From: Thomasclavelia spiroformis DSM 1552 | GTDB taxonomy: Bacteria > Bacillota_I > Bacilli_A > Erysipelotrichales > Coprobacillaceae | Assembly (NCBI RefSeq): GCF_025149465.1 | Contig: NZ_CP102275.1 | Span: forward strand, 372,001 to 436,000 | DNA: 64,000 bases | Direction: 5' to 3' | Part shown: positions 7,773 to 54,628 of the stretch, piece by piece | How the letters are laid out: every line of letters starts with the position of its first letter | How positions within the stretch are numbered: the first letter of the stretch is position 1 | Notes under the pieces: model-generated | The model's database searches: none | Told to the model about the DNA's origin: nothing | Seen by the model: the letters and a program-made list of their open reading frames with translations, nothing else | Made by a program: the position numbers and the translations under genes

Positions 7773-7789
7773 TAATGGGGTTAAAGAAT

Positions 7790-10006
7790 ATGAATATTAA
7801 AGATCGGATAATAAGTTATGAGCCACTTTTTGATAAATGGGTTTTAGATGAGATAATAGATGTATATGATCAAGAAAGTATTGTTAGAATTAAAGATCAA
7901 AGTTATGGTAGTAATCAATTTGCTTATTTGAAAGTAATTACTATATATGATCAAGATGATGATTTAAAATGTTTGGAACAACGGGTTGAAAGTATTAAAA
8001 GTGATTTGGAAATAGGTTTATTAAAAAGTGAATTTATTGATTGTGAACAATATTTAATTGAAAATAATCAAAGTGATGTTATTGGAATTGATCTTTGTTT
8101 ATTGATGAAAAATCATGAATATAAAATAGAAAATATTAATAATTTAAACGGTGAGCTACTATATGAATTGGGATTAAAGTTATTTGATCGCCATGAATAT
8201 GATGAGGCACTTATTTATTTTAAAAAAGGCGAAGAGATAGGTAATAGTGATTGTATTTGTGTTATTGGTTATTTATATGAACGAGGACTTGGAGTTGAAC
8301 AAAGTGATATAATGGCAGCACATTATTATCAAAAAGCTACTGATTTGAAAAACGTGGTAGCGAGTTGTAATTTGGCTTATTTTTATGAAATGGGTATTGG
8401 TGTTGAACAAGATTATCAAAAAGCATATGAATTATATTTAAAAGGAGCTAAAGCGGGTTTCCCTCGTGCTATTTGTAATTTAGGATATTGTTATGAATAT
8501 GGTTATGGTGTTGAAGCTGATATATATCAAGCTGTAGAATACTATATTGAAGCTGCAAAATTAGGCTATAGCGAAGCTATATATAGTTTGGGAACATGTT
8601 TTGAATTTGGTGAGGGAATTGAGCAAAATGATGAAAGAGCATTTAAATGCTATGAAGAAGCAGCAAACCAAGGTCATGAACGTTCACAATATCGCTTAGC
8701 TAATTGTTATGAAAATGGAATAGGTACACCAAAAGATTTTATTAAAGCATTTTATTGGTATAAACAAGCAAGTATAAAAGAATATCCTCCAGCACTAATT
8801 TCATTAGCGACATGCTATGAACTTGGACAAGGAATAGAAAAGGATTTAAAACAAGCACGTAAATATTATCAAAAAGCTGCTCATTTAGGTTATGCTCGTG
8901 GACAATTTTGGTTTGGATATTTTTATGAGAATCATCCAGAAATAAAAAATGCTGCATATCGTTGTACATATTGGTATCGTCAAGCTAGTAAACAAAATGA
9001 TGTTCAAGCGCTTGTTGCTCTTGGATATTGTTATGAAAGTGGTTTTGGAGTTAAAAAGAATTTAAAAAAAGCGGTTGATTTGTATTTACAAGCAGCAAAG
9101 ATGAATTATGCACCTGGTCAATGTAATTTAGCATATTGTTATGAAATTGGAATAGGTGTTGAAGTTGATTTAAATAAAGCAATTTATTATTATCATCTTG
9201 CAAGTAAAGCAAATTATCCAAGAGCGATGTGTAATTTAGGATATTTATATACTCATGGTCAAGGAGTAGAAGTAGATCATCAAAAAGCTTTTGATTTGTA
9301 TTTACAAGCAGCAAAGATGAATTATGCTCCAGGATTATATTATACTGGATTAGCGTATGAAGAAGGAAATGCAGTAAATGTTGATATTGATAAAGCAATT
9401 GAATATTATCAAAAAGCTACTGATTTAAATTATAGTGCAGCAATGTATAATTTAGGTTTGATTTATGAAAATAACATTGATTATCATGATGATTTAAAAG
9501 CAATTGAATATTATCAAGCAGCAATTGAATATAACGATGCAAGAGCAATGTATCGCATGGCTTTATATTTAGATGAAGGTCAAGTAATTAAAAGAGATCT
9601 TCAAAAAGCTTTTGATTATATACAATCTTCGGCAAATCAAGCATATAGTCCAGCTTTGAATATGTATGGGATTTATTTAGAAAATGGACTGGCTGGAAAT
9701 AAAGATATGGAAGAGGCGTATAGATGTTTTTTAAAAGCAGCTAGAGCGGGATATGCACCAGCGGTTTATAATTTAGGAAGATGTTATTTTTATGGGATAG
9801 GAATCGAAATTGATAAAGAACTTGCATTTGAATTGTTTTGTAAAGCAAGTGATTCAAATTATCGTGAAGCAAGTTTTATGGCAGGATATATGTGTTATTA
9901 TGGAGATGGTGTTAGTAAGGATGTAAATAAAGCTAAGAAATTTTATCAAAAAGCTGCAAAGTTGGGAATGAAAGAAGCAAAAGATGAACTAGATAAATTG
10001 GGTTAA
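7790..10006 (+). CDS. Sel1-repeat protein with kinase N-lobe-like N-terminus
   Basis: A 738-residue protein. From about residue 120 to the end it is a run of roughly 16-17 Sel1-like repeats of 36 residues (AxYNLGxxYExGxGVExDxxKAxxYYxKAA), an alpha-solenoid used for protein binding. The first ~110 residues are not repeats. They resemble the small lobe of a Ser/Thr kinase: strands around KWVLDEIIDVYDQESIVRIKD, a Lys in AYLKVITI where the ATP-binding Lys would be, a long helix (VESIKSDLEIGLLKSEFIDC) and a hinge-like VIGIDLCLLMKN. There is no Gly-rich loop and no catalytic lobe. ATG 7790 is chosen; ATG 7775 overlaps a TATAAT and has no ribosome site. Likely cytosolic. Confidence 0.8.
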   Translation: MNIKDRIISYEPLFDKWVLDEIIDVYDQESIVRIKDQSYGSNQFAYLKVITIYDQDDDLKCLEQRVESIKSDLEIGLLKSEFIDCEQYLIENNQSDVIGIDLCLLMKNHEYKIENINNLNGELLYELGLKLFDRHEYDEALIYFKKGEEIGNSDCICVIGYLYERGLGVEQSDIMAAHYYQKATDLKNVVASCNLAYFYEMGIGVEQDYQKAYELYLKGAKAGFPRAICNLGYCYEYGYGVEADIYQAVEYYIEAAKLGYSEAIYSLGTCFEFGEGIEQNDERAFKCYEEAANQGHERSQYRLANCYENGIGTPKDFIKAFYWYKQASIKEYPPALISLATCYELGQGIEKDLKQARKYYQKAAHLGYARGQFWFGYFYENHPEIKNAAYRCTYWYRQASKQNDVQALVALGYCYESGFGVKKNLKKAVDLYLQAAKMNYAPGQCNLAYCYEIGIGVEVDLNKAIYYYHLASKANYPRAMCNLGYLYTHGQGVEVDHQKAFDLYLQAAKMNYAPGLYYTGLAYEEGNAVNVDIDKAIEYYQKATDLNYSAAMYNLGLIYENNIDYHDDLKAIEYYQAAIEYNDARAMYRMALYLDEGQVIKRDLQKAFDYIQSSANQAYSPALNMYGIYLENGLAGNKDMEEAYRCFLKAARAGYAPAVYNLGRCYFYGIGIEIDKELAFELFCKASDSNYREASFMAGYMCYYGDGVSKDVNKAKKFYQKAAKLGMKEAKDELDKLG

Positions 10007-13574: not shown

Positions 13575-13811
13575 GTGGGTACTATCGCAAATATTGGAAA
13601 GAGACGGAAATGTCGTTGTATTAAAACTATGAATATTGTCATTGGTAAACAGCAAAGAGATTTATTTACTAAAGGGCATATTTATGATTGCGTAATTAGG
13701 GATAGTGGTCAGCTACAAATTTATTACAAGATTTATGGTGATGAATTTGATCTTTCATGTACTAAAGATGAATTTGATGAGAATTTTATATTGATTGATA
13801 AAAAGAAATAA
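13575..13811 (+). CDS. Small hypothetical protein
   Basis: Not recognised. Up to 78 residues, basic N-terminus (GKRRKCRC), then alternating beta-strand-like stretches and an acidic C-terminal part; no membrane segment. An extended -10 (TGTTATAAT, 13551-13559) lies just upstream, so a transcript should begin near 13566. The start is unclear: the GTG at 13575 sits inside the likely ribosome binding site AGAGGTGG (13571-13578), which suggests a rare start a few codons later (ATC 13584 or ATT 13593). The first in-frame ATG, at 13629, has no site. The reading frame looks real because it is placed squarely behind the promoter. Confidence 0.55.
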   Translation: MGTIANIGKRRKCRCIKTMNIVIGKQQRDLFTKGHIYDCVIRDSGQLQIYYKIYGDEFDLSCTKDEFDENFILIDKKK

Positions 13812-14144
13812 TTTGTTCGTGGTGATTTTAAAGCTTGATGTCTAGAAGAGATATTAAAATAATGGAATAATAATATTATTATATAGTAGGAAATTGGGTT
13901 TATAAATTATTTTATTATAGCTACTAATTGTAATAAGAAATGTAATTAGACATAAAAGTGTTTTTTAATTTGAAAGTTATTTTTTAGAAGAAATGTATTT
14001 AATGTCATATCCTAAAAGGATAAGTGAAGATAAATTTATTTGATTATATGGTGTGATTTTTAAACTTATATCTGGAATAGAAAAGTAGATTTGGCATTTT
14101 GGTGAAGATATGATAAAATGAAAAAGATTAGAAAGGAGGTTTTT
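13812..14144. other. Intergenic region with promoter at its end
   Basis: No gene seen in 333 AT-rich bases. Only the promoter at 14091-14119 and the AAAGGAGGT site of the next gene are recognisable. Confidence 0.6.
14091..14119 (+). promoter_or_regulatory. Promoter of P-type ATPase-like gene
   Basis: TTGGCA (14091-14096) and TAAAAT (14114-14119) with a 17-base spacer, 25 bases before the start codon. Confidence 0.65.
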
Positions 14145-16094
14145 ATGGCTCGTAATTTCTATATTGATAATATAAATGATAATGATAAATTAAATGAAAT
14201 TAGTATATTGTTAAATGACATGGAAGAAGTGTCGAGAATAAAAATAAATAAAAATGGGATATCTTTTTATAGCGAACATCCAGAAAATGTTGATGAACTT
14301 TTAAAAGAACGTTATCCTGATTTGATTTTAAAAGAAGAAATTAATTCACGTAAACGTGAATATGTTGCAACAAAAAAGAAAATTGAATATATTTTTATGT
14401 TTACAAATCTTGAATCAGAAGAAGATGCAAAAGAAATAGAGGAAGTTATTTCTCATTATTCTGATTATGAAAATGTAAGCTTAGATTTTACTAATAAATT
14501 ATTGAAAGTTACTACTAGTCAAAAAAATGTTTTGGTTAGATTAAATCGTTTAGTTGATAAAGTTAATCCTAATATTGATGTTGAACAATGGAAAAAGCCA
14601 TTTAAATCACAGGATTTATTTCAAGAAAAATATTTAAAAAACATGTTAATAATTGCAATTTTATTAGTTGCAATAGCATTAGGATTAGTAACAGGTAAAG
14701 ATCCAAGTATTCTTACAAATATTGCATGGTTTGTAGCCCTTGTTATCGTAAATGAAGAGATTATTCGCCGTGCATATAAAGATTTAAAAGTGAGGAATTT
14801 TTTAAGTGAAAATGTTACGATTAATTTAGCTTGTTTATTTGGTTGGGTTTATGGTGCATATGTTGAGGCATTAATTGTATCTTTGATTTTTCAAGCTAGT
14901 GAACGTTTTCAAATATATTTAATTAATTTAACGATGGATAAAATTGACAAGATGATTTCACCGGTAAAATTAGGGCGAAAGGAAATTAAAGATAATGAAT
15001 ATGAAATGGTTTCTTTAGAAGATATTGATATTGGTGATATTATTGTGGTTATGCCAGGTGAAACGATTCCTCTTGGTGGAAAAGTTGTTTCTGGAAGTAG
15101 TGATCTTGATATGTTTGCAATTAATGGTAGTGATATTTTAGAAAACGTTAAAGAAGGTGTAGAAGTACAAAGCGGTAGCGTGAATGTTGGTAATACATTG
15201 AAAATTGAGGTTTTGTATACTTATGATTATAGTGCAATGAATAAAGTTTTAGAAATTGCAATGATGGCACCAGTTAATTCTTCTAGAACGCATAAATTAG
15301 TAGAGTTGATTTGTAAGATTTATACCATCTTTTTGGTTGTTGCTGGAATTTTTTGTGCAATACTTGTACCTTGGGTAGATTTTACTAATAATTTTAAATA
15401 TGTATATTTAGGAGCTATTTTATTAACTATTTCAGGATCATTTGCTTATAAGCAAGTTTCATCATTCGCGATTTTATCAGGTGTGGCTAAGGCTTTTTCT
15501 AGAAATATTATCATTAAGGAAAATAGTGGGTTAGATGCATTGAATTTATGTAAAACAATAATATATGATCGTTTTGATGGTGTAGAAGTTACTGAAGAGG
15601 AAATGGATTTATTCCATGAACTTTCTAAATTAAATCGCAATTTGATTATTTTTAATGATGGTCCAGTTGATTTAGAGGATGATCAATATCGAATTCATAA
15701 TAATTTATCTGTTGATGAGAAATTAAAAATAATGAATGAAGCTAATATTAATGGGCCGGTTGCTTATATTGGGGATAATTCTAAAGATATTGCGTTATTG
15801 CAAAAAGCATATGTTGCTATTAGTCGAGGTGGAATAAAAAATAAAAAAGTTATTGAAAATAGTGATATTATGTTGATGAATTCAGATTTAAATACGGTCA
15901 TAGAAACATTTAAGATATCAAAGAAACAAAAAAATGTTACATTTGAAAATATCTTTGCTGGATTAGCTATTAATTTTATTATGATGCTTGCAGCATTAGG
16001 TGGTATTTTACCATGGTGGGTAGCTTTGGTTATTTATTTGACTGAAGAAATAATTGTTTTATTAAATACTCATAGAATTCTTGATATGAAATAA
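14145..16094 (+). CDS. Degenerate heavy-metal P-type ATPase-like membrane protein
   Basis: A 649-residue protein with the overall layout of a P1B (CadA/ZntA-like) metal pump. It has two N-terminal ferredoxin-like regions without CxxC (about 3-65 and 75-150), a first group of transmembrane helices (about 165-260), an actuator-like domain (280-360), a helix pair (390-450), a HAD-like region (460-590) and a last helix pair (600-645). Every catalytic signature is altered. TGES becomes NGSD (about 327-330), the CPC ion motif becomes GSFAYK, DKTGT becomes DRFDG (Asp475), and GDGxND becomes GDNSKD (543-548). The nucleotide domain is reduced to about 60 residues. ATP-driven pumping is unlikely; a regulatory or binding role is possible. 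The start follows AAAGGAGGT; the frame is intact over 1.9 kb, so it is under selection rather than a pseudogene. Confidence 0.75.
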   Translation: MARNFYIDNINDNDKLNEISILLNDMEEVSRIKINKNGISFYSEHPENVDELLKERYPDLILKEEINSRKREYVATKKKIEYIFMFTNLESEEDAKEIEEVISHYSDYENVSLDFTNKLLKVTTSQKNVLVRLNRLVDKVNPNIDVEQWKKPFKSQDLFQEKYLKNMLIIAILLVAIALGLVTGKDPSILTNIAWFVALVIVNEEIIRRAYKDLKVRNFLSENVTINLACLFGWVYGAYVEALIVSLIFQASERFQIYLINLTMDKIDKMISPVKLGRKEIKDNEYEMVSLEDIDIGDIIVVMPGETIPLGGKVVSGSSDLDMFAINGSDILENVKEGVEVQSGSVNVGNTLKIEVLYTYDYSAMNKVLEIAMMAPVNSSRTHKLVELICKIYTIFLVVAGIFCAILVPWVDFTNNFKYVYLGAILLTISGSFAYKQVSSFAILSGVAKAFSRNIIIKENSGLDALNLCKTIIYDRFDGVEVTEEEMDLFHELSKLNRNLIIFNDGPVDLEDDQYRIHNNLSVDEKLKIMNEANINGPVAYIGDNSKDIALLQKAYVAISRGGIKNKKVIENSDIMLMNSDLNTVIETFKISKKQKNVTFENIFAGLAINFIMMLAALGGILPWWVALVIYLTEEIIVLLNTHRILDMK

Positions 16095-17179: not shown

Positions 17180-17334
17180 GTAAATGAAAAGTAGTGGAAA
17201 GAAGAAGTGCCTACTTCTCGCCTGATTGATAATATCGATAGGCAAATGTCACTAAGATAGTTATCTTATTGTCAATATGTGGGTACTTAATGTGCTCACT
17301 TTTTATTTAAACTACTAAAATGGAGGTGGCTTTT
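17180..17334 (+). promoter_or_regulatory. Ribosomal-protein (L20-type) leader of infC operon with attenuator
   Basis: The leader holds four successive hairpins: 17203-17218 (AGAAGT/ACTTCT, loop GCCT), 17220-17243 (GCCT/AGGC with inner pairing), 17248-17273 (AAGATA/TATCTT core) and a terminator at 17279-17299. In Bacillus this operon is controlled by L20 binding its leader and causing premature termination. The same position and gene content suggest the same control here. Assignment to the Rfam L20 leader was not tested. Confidence 0.65.
17279..17305 (+). terminator. Attenuator terminator in infC leader
   Basis: GTGGGTAC (17279-17286) pairs with GTGCTCAC (17292-17299, G-T pairs) over a 5-base loop, followed by T5. 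It is placed 30 bases before the infC start, so it can stop transcription before the coding region. Confidence 0.75.
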
Positions 17335-19585: not shown

Positions 19586-20290
19586 ATGAATAGCTTTATA
19601 GTTTTTGATAATGTTAAAAAAACATATAAAGTCGGAGATATAGAAATTAATGCATCTGATGGTGTTGATTTTAATATTCAAAAAGGAGAATTTGTAGTAA
19701 TAGTAGGACCTTCTGGGGCAGGTAAAACTACAATCTTAAATCTCCTTGGAGGTATGGATAAAGCAACTAGTGGAAGGATATTAGTTGATGGTAAAGATGT
19801 TGCAAAATATAGTGAAAGACAATTAACTCAATATCGTAGAAATGATATTGGTTTTGTTTTTCAATTTTATAATTTAGTTCAGAATTTAACAGCTTTAGAA
19901 AATGTTGAATTGGCAACACAAATATCAAAAAATCCCTTAGATGTAAAGATGGTTTTAAAACGAGTAGGGTTAGAAAATAGAATGAATAATTTTCCTGCTC
20001 AACTATCAGGAGGGGAACAACAACGTGTAGCAATAGCTAGAGCAATTGCTAAAAATCCTAAATTATTACTATGTGATGAACCAACTGGTGCTTTAGATTA
20101 TCAAACTGGTAAAGCGATTTTAGCTTTACTTAGAGAAATGTGTAATAAATATAAAATGACAGTTATTGTAATTACTCATAATAGTGCTTTGGCTCCAATG
20201 GCAGATCGTATTATTCATTTAAAAAATGGTCGCGTTGCTTCATCAGCTATTAATGAAAATCCTAAACCGATAGAAGAAATTGAGTGGTAG
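19586..20290 (+). CDS. ABC transporter ATP-binding protein (MacB/LolD type)
   Basis: The ATPase that powers the FtsX-like permease encoded directly downstream. The 234 residues contain Walker A GPSGAGKT (41-48), the Q-loop [11 protein letters not shown], the signature LSGGEQQ (140-146), Walker [13 protein letters not shown] (161-171) and the H-loop VITHN. The sequence is of the MacB/LolD group, which drives mechanotransmission rather than substrate passage. ATG 19586 is chosen (usual N-terminus [14 protein letters not shown]); TATAAT sequences lie just upstream. The stop is 2 bases before the permease start. Confidence 0.95.
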
Positions 20291-20292
20291 AT

Positions 20293-23200
20293 ATGAAAAA
20301 AAGAGCTTATGTAAAAAATCAAATTCAAATTATTCGTAAAACTAAAGCGAGATTTTTGTCTATTTTTTGTATTGTATTTTTAGGTGCTGCATTTTTTGCG
20401 GGATTACGTCATACTTCTTCGATTATGGAAATAACTATGGATGATTATTTGAAGAAGTATGAGTATAATGATTTGAATTATATAAGTACTTTAGGTTTTG
20501 ATGAAAGTATTGTTGATAAGATAGCTAAAGTAGATGAAGTTGAAAATATTGAGTATGGAAATAGATTTGATGCTTTAATGGATTTTGAAGATAGTCGAAA
20601 AGGTGTAACTGTTTATACTAACAATGATTTTAAAAATAGCGTTGATAAATTAGAGTTAGTGGAAGGAAGTTTTCCTACGAAAGATAATGAATGTGTGATT
20701 GACTATAATTTCACGACAAGAAATAAGGTCAATGTTGGTGATAAAATAGTTTTATCAAATGATAATGGTGTTAAAGAGTTTGCTGTAAGTGGCTTAGTTA
20801 ATGATACAAGGTATTTTAGTACGGTTGAGCGCGGGACTAATACGCTAGGTGATGGAACTAATGAAGCATTTATTATGATTTTATCTAATGGAAATGAAGA
20901 ATTTGCACTACCAAAAGAGTTATATGATTTACGTGGAAAAATTGTTTTTAATGAACTTAGAGTAACATTAAAAAATCCTAATGACTATAGTATTTTTAGT
21001 GATGAGTATTTGAGGTATAGTGATGATGTAAATAAACAAATTGAAAAGATATTGAATAGTGAAATTGATTTAGTAAATGATAGTTTAGTCATGAATGCTA
21101 ATGATGAACTTGCACAAGGTGAAAAAGATTATGAGGATGCTAAAGCAAAGTATGAAGATGGTGTTAATCAATATAATGAAGGGTTAGTTCAATATCAAAA
21201 TGGGTATAGTCAATATCTTGATGGAGTTAGTGAATATAATAAAGGTTATGATCAATATAGTGATGGATTAAAACAATATAATGATGGTTTAGCGCAGTAT
21301 CAAACAGGTTTGCAACAATATCTTGATGGTGAAAGTCAATATAATCAAGGTTTAAGTAAATGGCAAGAAGGTTTTAAGCAATATCAAGAATTAGTAAATC
21401 AGTATAATCAATTAAGTCAAGTATATAATCAAAAACTTGATGAATATAATCAATATATTGAAGCTGGTATTCCTGAAAGTGAATTGATAGAACTTAAAGA
21501 ATTTTTAAGGGAAACTAGTGAGAAAATGAGTATATTACAAACCACGTATTCTAATTTAAAAAGTGAATTAGATAATAATAAAGCTATTTTAGATGAAAAA
21601 GGTATTGTTTTAAATGAAAATAAAATTTTATTAGAAAATACTAAAAGTAAATTAGATAAATCTAAAATAGAGCTTGATAATAGTAATGCAAAATTAATTG
21701 CATCTAAACAACAATTAGATGATACAAAAATAAAATTAGAAGAATCTAAAAAAATTTTGGATCAAACAAAAATTGATTTAGATAATGCGAAAATACAATT
21801 AGATGATGCTAGAGCAAAATTGAACCAAGGGTATGATGGGATAAAAGATATTCCTGAAGGCGAGTTAGTTACTATTACAAGAGAAGAAAATGCAAGTATC
21901 ATAAGTTATATTTCAACTTGTGATTCAATGAGAGCTTTAGCTCTTGTTTTCCCTTTGATTTTCTTTTTAGTAGCAGCGCTTGTTAGTCTTACAACTATGA
22001 CTAGAATGGTTGAAGAGCAACGAGTTCAAAGCGGAACATTTAGGGCGCTAGGATACGATAAAAAAGATGTCATTAATCAGTATATATTTTATGCTTTTTC
22101 AGCCACTTTTTTTGCAAGTATTATAGGAGTAGTTGCAGGAGTATATTTTTTCCCAAATATTATTTACTATTTGTATCGTATGATATTATTTAATGTTGGT
22201 GCACCGATAAATATAACCTTTGATATGTTTATCTGTATTCAGACATTTGTTATTTCTGTAGCAATAACAATATTAGTAACATATATCGTAGTAAGACAAG
22301 AATTAAGCGAAACTCCAGCTAGTCTACTTCGTCCAAAACCACCTAAAATGGGCAAAAGAATTGTATTGGAGAGAATAACTTTTATTTGGAAAAGATTGTC
22401 ATTTAATCAGAAAGTAACTATGCGTAATATTTTTAGATATAAGAAGCGATTTTTTATGTCTATTGTGGGAATTGCAGGATGCACAGGGTTGATCGTAGTA
22501 GGGTTTGGAATTAAGAATTCAGTTTCCACACTTGCAGATAAGCAATATGGTGAAATATGGACTTATGATGGAGTTGTGGTGTTTGATAAAAATTTAAGTC
22601 AAGAAGATTTATTATTAGAACAAAGTAAGTTTAACGACGTTAAGGGAATTAAAAATAGTGATGCTTTTTATCGGCAAACAGTGACGGTTTCTGGAGATAA
22701 GGAACATTATACAACGTTAGAAATATTTGATAATGATCAAGAATTAAGTAAATATATTAAATTAGAAGATTATAAAACACATGATCGCTTAAAATTAAGT
22801 AATAATGGAGTAATTATTTCAGCAAAGCTTTCAGAATTATTAAGGGTTCAAGCTGGAGATCAAATTAAGATAAAAATTAATAATGATAGTTATCAAGTTA
22901 AAGTTAATGGAGTTATGATGTTGCATTTCCAACACCACATTTATATGACTAAGGAATTTTATCATCAATTAACTGGTAAAGAAGTACTTGATAATTATGC
23001 TTACTTTGATTTAACTAAAAATGCTAATGAGCAGGTAATTAGTGATTATTGTAATAATAATGAAAAAATTAATTCTGTAAATTATATAATGGGTATTTCT
23101 CAAGGTTTTAGAGATCAAATGGGAAGTATTGATAGTGTTGTTATAATATTAATTGCTTGTGCTGGAGCATTAGCGTTTATAGTATTATATAATCTAACAA

Positions 23201-23529
23201 ATATTAATATTCAAGAACGTAAAAGTGAAATAGCTACAGTTAAGGTACTTGGCTTTTATCCAAAAGAGGTTTATGATTATGTATTTAGAGAAAATCGTAT
23301 TTTGGGATTAATTGGGGCTATGGTTGGACTTGTTCTTGGTAAAATTCTTCACATGTTTATTATCAGAACTGTTGAAGTAGAAATTGCAATGTTTGTAAGA
23401 AATGTTAATATATTAAGTTATGTTTATGCTGTTTTGATTACTTTATTTTTTACGTCTCTTATTAATTTTGTAATGCGTAAAGTATTAGATAAAATTGATA
23501 TGGTTGAGTCGTTAAAGAGTGTAGAATAG
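20293..23529 (+). CDS. FtsX-family ABC permease with long periplasm-side coiled coil
   Basis: Large (1078 residues) MacB/FtsX-type permease. One transmembrane helix near residues 20-40 is followed by a MacB-like extracytoplasmic domain. Then comes a long helical segment (about 270-515) made first of seven-residue repeats of the form QYxxGLx (about 290-365) and then of LDxxKxxLDxxK heptads. After it come three helices with the FtsX core (SLTTMTRMVEEQRVQSGTFRALGYDKKDV), a second extracytoplasmic domain and three C-terminal helices (LYNLTNINIQERKSEIATVKVLGFYPKEV). Relatives are putative export/lipid or peptide-resistance transporters. It forms a two-gene operon with the ATPase. Confidence 0.9.
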   Translation: MKKRAYVKNQIQIIRKTKARFLSIFCIVFLGAAFFAGLRHTSSIMEITMDDYLKKYEYNDLNYISTLGFDESIVDKIAKVDEVENIEYGNRFDALMDFEDSRKGVTVYTNNDFKNSVDKLELVEGSFPTKDNECVIDYNFTTRNKVNVGDKIVLSNDNGVKEFAVSGLVNDTRYFSTVERGTNTLGDGTNEAFIMILSNGNEEFALPKELYDLRGKIVFNELRVTLKNPNDYSIFSDEYLRYSDDVNKQIEKILNSEIDLVNDSLVMNANDELAQGEKDYEDAKAKYEDGVNQYNEGLVQYQNGYSQYLDGVSEYNKGYDQYSDGLKQYNDGLAQYQTGLQQYLDGESQYNQGLSKWQEGFKQYQELVNQYNQLSQVYNQKLDEYNQYIEAGIPESELIELKEFLRETSEKMSILQTTYSNLKSELDNNKAILDEKGIVLNENKILLENTKSKLDKSKIELDNSNAKLIASKQQLDDTKIKLEESKKILDQTKIDLDNAKIQLDDARAKLNQGYDGIKDIPEGELVTITREENASIISYISTCDSMRALALVFPLIFFLVAALVSLTTMTRMVEEQRVQSGTFRALGYDKKDVINQYIFYAFSATFFASIIGVVAGVYFFPNIIYYLYRMILFNVGAPINITFDMFICIQTFVISVAITILVTYIVVRQELSETPASLLRPKPPKMGKRIVLERITFIWKRLSFNQKVTMRNIFRYKKRFFMSIVGIAGCTGLIVVGFGIKNSVSTLADKQYGEIWTYDGVVVFDKNLSQEDLLLEQSKFNDVKGIKNSDAFYRQTVTVSGDKEHYTTLEIFDNDQELSKYIKLEDYKTHDRLKLSNNGVIISAKLSELLRVQAGDQIKIKINNDSYQVKVNGVMMLHFQHHIYMTKEFYHQLTGKEVLDNYAYFDLTKNANEQVISDYCNNNEKINSVNYIMGISQGFRDQMGSIDSVVIILIACAGALAFIVLYNLTNINIQERKSEIATVKVLGFYPKEVYDYVFRENRILGLIGAMVGLVLGKILHMFIIRTVEVEIAMFVRNVNILSYVYAVLITLFFTSLINFVMRKVLDKIDMVESLKSVE

Positions 23530-54508: not shown

Positions 54509-54528
54509 ACTAAAATTATAGTGTATTT

Positions 54529-54612
54529 TATCCCTACGTTGGCATTATCCAAATCAGGTTATGGGTCGAAGGTAATACCTTCCTCTCAGCCTGTACAACA
54601 AGCTCCCCTTAA
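54529..54612 (-). promoter_or_regulatory. TPP riboswitch (THI element)
   Basis: The minus strand shows the conserved pieces in order: AAGGGGAGC, GGCTGAGAGGAAGG, CGACCC, AACCTGAT, GGATAATGCCAACGTAGGGA. With the terminator downstream this is a classical transcription-off switch that turns down thiM-thiE-HAD-thiD when TPP is high. Confidence 0.97.
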
Positions 54613-54628
54613 TAATGTTGTCATATTA

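Follow-up and report, generated by a model that had tools for sequence, protein, structure and literature searches.

A conserved family of apparently pump-dead P1B-ATPase descendants with a re-specified P domain in Coprobacillaceae

Here we report that the window, a 64,000-nucleotide stretch of Thomasclavelia spiroformis DSM 1552 (contig NZ_CP102275.1, positions 372,001 to 436,000 of the forward strand), encodes a 649-residue pseudo-pump, i.e., a descendant of the Zn/Cd-type P1B ATPases that appears to have lost its pumping function. We propose that its P domain was rebuilt and, tethered to the membrane, acts as a sensor or switch, a proposal for which the evidence is about evenly poised. The loss of pumping is the well-supported part of this picture, while the sensing role is what we infer. 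A sensor or partner role is possible, as had been suggested by an earlier inspection of the letters alone (hereafter the sequence-only reading).

The gene and the features discussed below are collected in Table 1. As stated in the sequence-only reading, the 1.95-kb frame is intact: its 649 codons contain no stop, and both the start, an ATG at 14145 that follows AGAAAGGAGG, and the stop at 16094 proved correct. The promoter and the ribosome site that had been assigned to the gene are each conserved in seven Thomasclavelia-type loci; the promoter-like TTGGCA-17-TAAAAT, located within TATGATAAAAT, is as a consensus match on its own not above the shuffle count, i.e., at chance level in such AT-rich DNA. 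A search for riboswitches, metal-responsive or other known RNAs found none upstream of the pseudo-pump and only L20 leaders further downstream. In the window, a ribosomal protein L20 leader (17193-17313, +) and a TPP riboswitch (54514-54619, -) score above the Rfam threshold.

Table 1. Features of the pseudo-pump gene and its upstream region (window coordinates)
Feature	Position	Strand	Basis
Small four-cysteine protein (CxC...C...C), candidate partner	13575..13811, exact start uncertain	+	Upstream of nearly every orthologue
Decayed GNAT acetyltransferase remnant	13826..14087	+	blastn/tblastn pieces, in-frame stop, middle missing
Promoter-like site TTGGCA-17-TAAAAT, TG before second hexamer	14091..14119	+	Consensus match; conserved in seven Thomasclavelia-type loci
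Ribosome-binding site AGAAAGGAGG	14130..14139	+	Sequence; conserved in seven Thomasclavelia-type loci
Probable pump-dead P1B-ATPase descendant, 649 aa	14145..16094	+	Intact frame; E1-E2_ATPase/P1B pump homology; orthologues
First ferredoxin-like (HMA-type) domain, aa 1-66, no CxxC	14145..14342	+	Strand-helix-strand-strand-helix order in model; weak CsoZ match, E 0.001
Second ferredoxin-like (HMA-type) domain, aa 80-150, no CxxC	14382..14594	+	Model; HMA at E 0.08; aligns with SsZntA HMA region
Actuator (A) domain, aa 276-378; TGES to NGSD at 15123-15134	14970..15278	+	Alignment; PF00122 match
Former CPC ion site in M4, GSF, aa 431-433	15435..15443	+	Alignment with canonical pumps
P domain (HAD core) without N domain, aa 453-590	15501..15914	+	Model, pLDDT 84.8, pTM 0.83; structure alignment to 7qbz
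YDRFDG motif, aa 474-479, Asp475 at phospho-Asp position	15564..15581	+	Alignment, 28 members
NDGP motif, aa 504-507, at TGD (HAD motif II) place	15654..15665	+	Invariant; register vs TGD uncertain by one residue
Lys526 (HAD motif III)	15720..15722	+	Invariant in pseudo-pumps and canonical pumps
GDNSKD, aa 543-548; Asp544/Asp548 kept, Asn to Lys547	15771..15788	+	G, D, K, D invariant

The P1B pump layout recognised in the sequence-only reading is confirmed as homology to P1B heavy-metal ATPases. Pfam E1-E2_ATPase (PF00122) matches residues 281-450 of the window protein with an E-value of 8e-21 and is found in 28/28 aligned family members, and NCBIfam P1B subfamilies match the protein at about 1e-49 (3e-49 for TIGR01525), at scores that lie far below the curated cut-offs (168 of 346 bits for TIGR01525 and 166 of 313.5 for TIGR01512). 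The closest solved structure is SsZntA (PDB 4umv). The T. spiroformis genome also encodes two canonical P1B pumps with complete motifs (about 622 and 812 aa), at loci about 83 kb or more from the pseudo-pump; a profile-profile alignment of the pseudo-pump with the genome's own canonical pump covers 489 columns at 100% probability. A layout of eight transmembrane helices (MA-MB and M1-M6) is predicted; hydropathy and alignment mostly agree on it, and the full-length model is weak there (pLDDT about 40 in MA-M2), too weak in the membrane for helix placement or domain contacts. With the P1B ATPases ZntA/CadA (PDB 4umv, 7qbz; TIGR01525/TIGR01512) the pseudo-pump has in common its descent and domain order (HMA-type, MA/MB, M1-M6, A, P), the fold of the P domain, the phospho-Asp position, the motif III Lys and the motif IV Asp residues. 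By descent, it is a member of the P1B group.

A first sample of 36 same-family genomes yielded orthologues with 34-82% identity in 26, and a profile search found them in 32 of 43 Coprobacillaceae genomes (T. spiroformis included). The gene-bearing genera number 11, Thomasclavelia and Faecalibacillus among them; the named carriers that a species-level genome scan turned up include Thomasclavelia saccharogumia, T. cocleata, Faecalibacillus intestinalis and F. faecis. Outside Coprobacillaceae, the samples of order, class and phylum yielded no orthologue. The class sample (346 genomes) and the phylum sample (392 genomes) gave no match at 1e-70; in the order's other family the E-values of the profile matches fall short by more than 170 orders of magnitude, and those that were aligned are canonical pumps. 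In the phylogenetic tree, 28 members form one clade (96/98) on a long stem, apart from 25 canonical pumps (100/100), with the two most degenerate members on long branches and thus unsure in their placement.

Alignment with these 25 canonical pumps was used to check the motif claims. TGE in the A domain is present in 0/28 members, which carry NGS, NGN, DGS, DGN, DGD or TST-like residues instead (the window protein has NGSD, aa 327-330, at the TGES place), and the CPC/SPC ion site in M4 is likewise found in 0/28 (GSFAYK, aa 431-436, in the window protein). DKTGT is absent from 28/28, being replaced by YDRFDG (once YDRYDG) in 27 and by YDRIDD in the remaining one; in the window protein DRFDG (aa 475-479) takes its place, with the Asp itself kept. 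GDNSKD (aa 543-548) stands for GDGxND, the pseudo-pump form of this motif being GDxxKD, and the two N-terminal domains of the window protein contain no CxxC. Moreover, the motif IV GD follows the motif I Asp at a distance of 68 residues vs 182-197 in the 25 canonical pumps, which are of the same order. No orthologue with intact motifs occurs among the 28 aligned members. Hence, every substitution listed in the sequence-only reading was confirmed, as was the absence of CxxC, and the nucleotide domain that it described as cut down is missing. Its statement that all catalytic signatures are lost holds for the motif strings of the pump but not for the HAD residues, since D475, K526, D544 and D548 are invariant; the metal-binding role that it also considered is not indicated, neither CxxC nor CPC being kept. 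Five tested features that define a working P1B-ATPase are lacking in the pseudo-pump. A protein that has neither an N domain, nor TGE, nor CPC, nor a maintained ion path cannot run the known P1B cycle, and we regard the loss of pumping as well supported.

The P-domain model contains a complete HAD Rossmann-like core. It aligns with the P domain of the Cd-ATPase 7qbz over 138/138 residues (Z 17.4, rmsd 2.5) and with SsZntA over 137 residues (Z 17.1), and the matched range in these two chains spans about 260-271 residues; this full-length fit to far longer chain ranges indicates that, in the model, the N (ATP-binding) domain, which the alignment skips, is cleanly removed and that the HAD core has closed over the gap. 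That the N-domain loss stems from a sequencing error or frameshift was ruled out by the same architecture in all 11 gene-bearing genera. All members retain D475, K526, D544, D548 and D574, and a second set of P-domain residues is newly fixed: Y474, R476, F477, D478, N504-D505-G506-P507, K547 and R561. Within the first motif, Y474, D475, R476 and D478 are invariant across the 28 members, and F477 (26/28) and G479 nearly so. In the pocket, R476 replaces the K of canonical pumps, F477 the T, K547 the N and R561 the M. The HAD motif II Thr/Ser is lost, the aligned residue being Asn or Phe/Tyr depending on the register. With a complete HAD core, which is also its best-conserved part, the protein appears to be pump-dead but not obviously active-site-dead.

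Given this, we propose that the re-specified P domain would be the working part, held at the membrane and binding a ligand or a partner. Asp475, Asp544 and Asp548, together with the new cationic Arg476, Lys547 and Arg561, may bind an anionic or phosphorylated ligand; alternatively, the same pocket residues might lock the fold without Mg2+, a lysine replacing the ion. The three cationic residues lie near the invariant acids and would therefore suit either an anionic ligand or a lysine in place of Mg2+. The state of the P domain could be read out through the membrane shell or through the neighbouring small Cys4 protein described below, so that the protein would act like a transporter-derived sensor rather than a transporter. 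We would advance only tentatively the further idea of a new functional class, in which an N-less, membrane-tethered P domain with a rebuilt HAD pocket answers to, or is phosphorylated by, a non-ATP donor and is uncoupled from transport.

The chief rival to the sensor or switch is residual HAD chemistry with a non-ATP donor, as the kept HAD catalytic residues could serve chemistry rather than sensing. The protein would then be a membrane-bound HAD hydrolase or phosphotransferase, with Asp475 taking up a phospho or acyl group from a small donor to give the enzyme intermediate. The completeness of the fold speaks for such an enzyme, as does the 28/28 invariance of the central HAD catalytic residues (Asp475, Lys526, Asp544 and Asp548). 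Cap-less HAD phosphatases (KDO8P phosphatase, PDB 4hgn; 2p9j) have in common with the pseudo-pump the cap-less Rossmann core, the Asp, the Lys and an acidic motif IV. Unlike these phosphatases, however, the pseudo-pump has Phe at D+2, has lost the motif II Thr/Ser and carries Lys547 in motif IV; moreover, it is fused to a pump membrane domain and descends in sequence from P-type ATPases. The change of the D+2 Thr/Asp to Phe, the replaced motif II Thr and the exchange of the motif IV Asn for Lys beside the Mg-binding acids all count against catalysis, as do the lack of a substrate cap domain and of an enzymatic set of neighbour genes, and we consider this enzyme unlikely. An aromatic D+2 residue is also found in haloacid dehalogenases, and Phe477 is therefore no bar to nucleophilic catalysis.

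The chromosomal neighbourhood is widely conserved in the order prfC, small Cys4 protein, pseudo-pump, (glycerate kinase), rluD, infC and rplT, of which the neighbours prfC, rluD, infC and rplT point to no pathway; this, like the lack of an upstream riboswitch, counts against a sensor or switch. The small Cys4 proteins are about 73-85 aa long, with four invariant cysteines (CxC, C, C) as well as YKIYGEEF and LSC, and gave no match to Pfam or PDB. Their gene precedes every full orthologue whose flank was read, with a GNAT or MATE-type gene intervening in some, and the two genes are jointly missing from the slot in six genera that lack the pseudo-pump. Given this, the pseudo-pump may be a non-catalytic subunit in a complex with the small Cys4 protein or with a canonical P1B pump, which it would modulate; canonical pumps are indeed present in the genome. 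However, G016 has the small Cys4 protein without a pseudo-pump, and G009 has a degenerate pump copy with no small Cys4 protein on its contig, the adjacency is inherited and thus not independent evidence, and the canonical pumps lie at the distance given above. The link between the two genes hence seems strong but not absolute, and we judge a subunit role rather improbable as the main explanation; forming a complex with the Cys4 protein would be compatible with either the switch or the HAD enzyme.

Several further observations concern this chromosomal region. In 5/6 of the genera lacking both genes, the slot after prfC holds a membrane-type-looking protein of about 210-230 aa (L108, L109, L111, L112, L113; e.g., L111:4541-5173, -), two examples of which have no Pfam match. 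In several Thomasclavelia-type genomes, a YbjQ-family protein (Pfam 'putative heavy-metal-binding') is encoded directly downstream of the pseudo-pump (L060:9976-10272, L035:7991-8293, L036 and L061); the gene is absent from that place in the T. spiroformis window. Upstream of prfC, the window encodes a 743-aa protein (7775-10006) that consists almost wholly of Sel1-type-looking repeats and is conserved there in several relatives, and at 20284-23529 a 1081-aa protein, adjoining an ABC-type ATPase gene, in which one region is a long run of QYxDGLxQYxxG-like repeats.

The distribution of constraint along the protein bears on whether the pump shell may still conduct ions. In a comparison that is rough, because the canonical sample mixes pump subtypes, the fraction of columns at least 90% conserved was 0.40 in pseudo-pumps vs 0.37 in canonical pumps for the P domain, 0.11 vs 0.20 for the A domain, 0.11 vs 0.38 for M3-M4 and 0.03 vs 0.24 for M5-M6. 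The collapse of constraint thus appears specific to the ion path and the A domain, with the P domain at the level of working pumps. At the canonical metal-site M5 Lys and M6 Asp, one pseudo-pump clade has K610/E631 and the other mostly N or S with Y. If the pump shell had become a passive channel or leak, this would fit the retention of the P1B membrane helices after the loss of energy coupling, but no part of the protein is less conserved than the ion path, whose residues are not the same in the two clades, which makes such a channel very unlikely.

Pairwise dN/dS (NG86, whole gene, pairs above 75% identity) ranged from 0.03 to 0.20; the more distant pairs approach saturation at synonymous sites, so that the closest pairs (0.033 and 0.052) give the safest values. 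Frames are intact in 28/28 aligned members. The sequence-only reading had taken the gene for a maintained pseudo-pump, naming the loss of the same motifs in related genomes and a dN/dS well below 1 as support, and this has held up: TGE, CPC and DKTGT are absent from all 28 orthologues, and the ratios are as given. Decay was ruled out by dN/dS, intact frames and the conserved promoter; the orthologues, the substitution rates and the single clade put the finding well outside chance and indicate a real family under strong selection. A pseudogene on its way out, as the many missing canonical motifs and two further eroded genera might suggest, is hardly credible given these frames and ratios, the conserved promoter and ribosome site and the invariance of the new motifs.

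What decay looks like can be seen on the same stretch of chromosome, where the neighbouring GNAT gene of T. spiroformis is broken and the pseudo-pump is intact; the GNAT gene is itself intact at the same place in sister species (L035, L036, L038, L060, L061). This difference counts in favour of a maintained sensor or switch, as does the presence of canonical pumps with complete motifs in the genome. On the other side stand two genera (G009 and G010) that keep the pump shell with an eroded P domain, which would be odd if the P domain were the working part and counts against a switch. The degenerate shells of the two genera, L058:1936-3732 (-; 593 aa) and L059:7011-8804 (-; 591 aa), lie close to prfC, and in them the P-domain motifs survive in part (DLEELE, GES-KH) or not at all. 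Hence, we are cautious about the P domain being needed in every lineage.

Pseudoenzymes are well known among kinases and proteases. In the open-licence literature, we found no description of a pseudo, inactive or degenerate P-type ATPase family. Transporter-derived sensors (transceptors) include UhpC and yeast Snf3/Rgt2, which combine a transporter fold with the absence of the ancestral transport role; by analogy, we propose the same for the pseudo-pump, although it belongs to a different superfamily and its role is inferred only. Transceptors are the subject of a review (PMC5890159), and a 2023 review raises the question of a transceptor role for eukaryotic P1B pumps, citing scaffold roles of P4A ATPases (PMC10654040). 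The functionally uncharacterised P-type ATPases (FUPA) are, like the pseudo-pump, P-type homologues of unknown function; FUPA 24, however, still has P-type functional motifs, in its C-terminal region (PMC3573892), whereas the pseudo-pump family lacks them.

The clean losses in this family make it possible to identify which parts of a pump are dispensable, namely the ATP domain, the dephosphorylation loop and the ion path, and which part is kept and re-specified, namely the P domain. The pseudo-pump thus offers a natural test of the P domain as a stand-alone switch, in a common group of gut bacteria.
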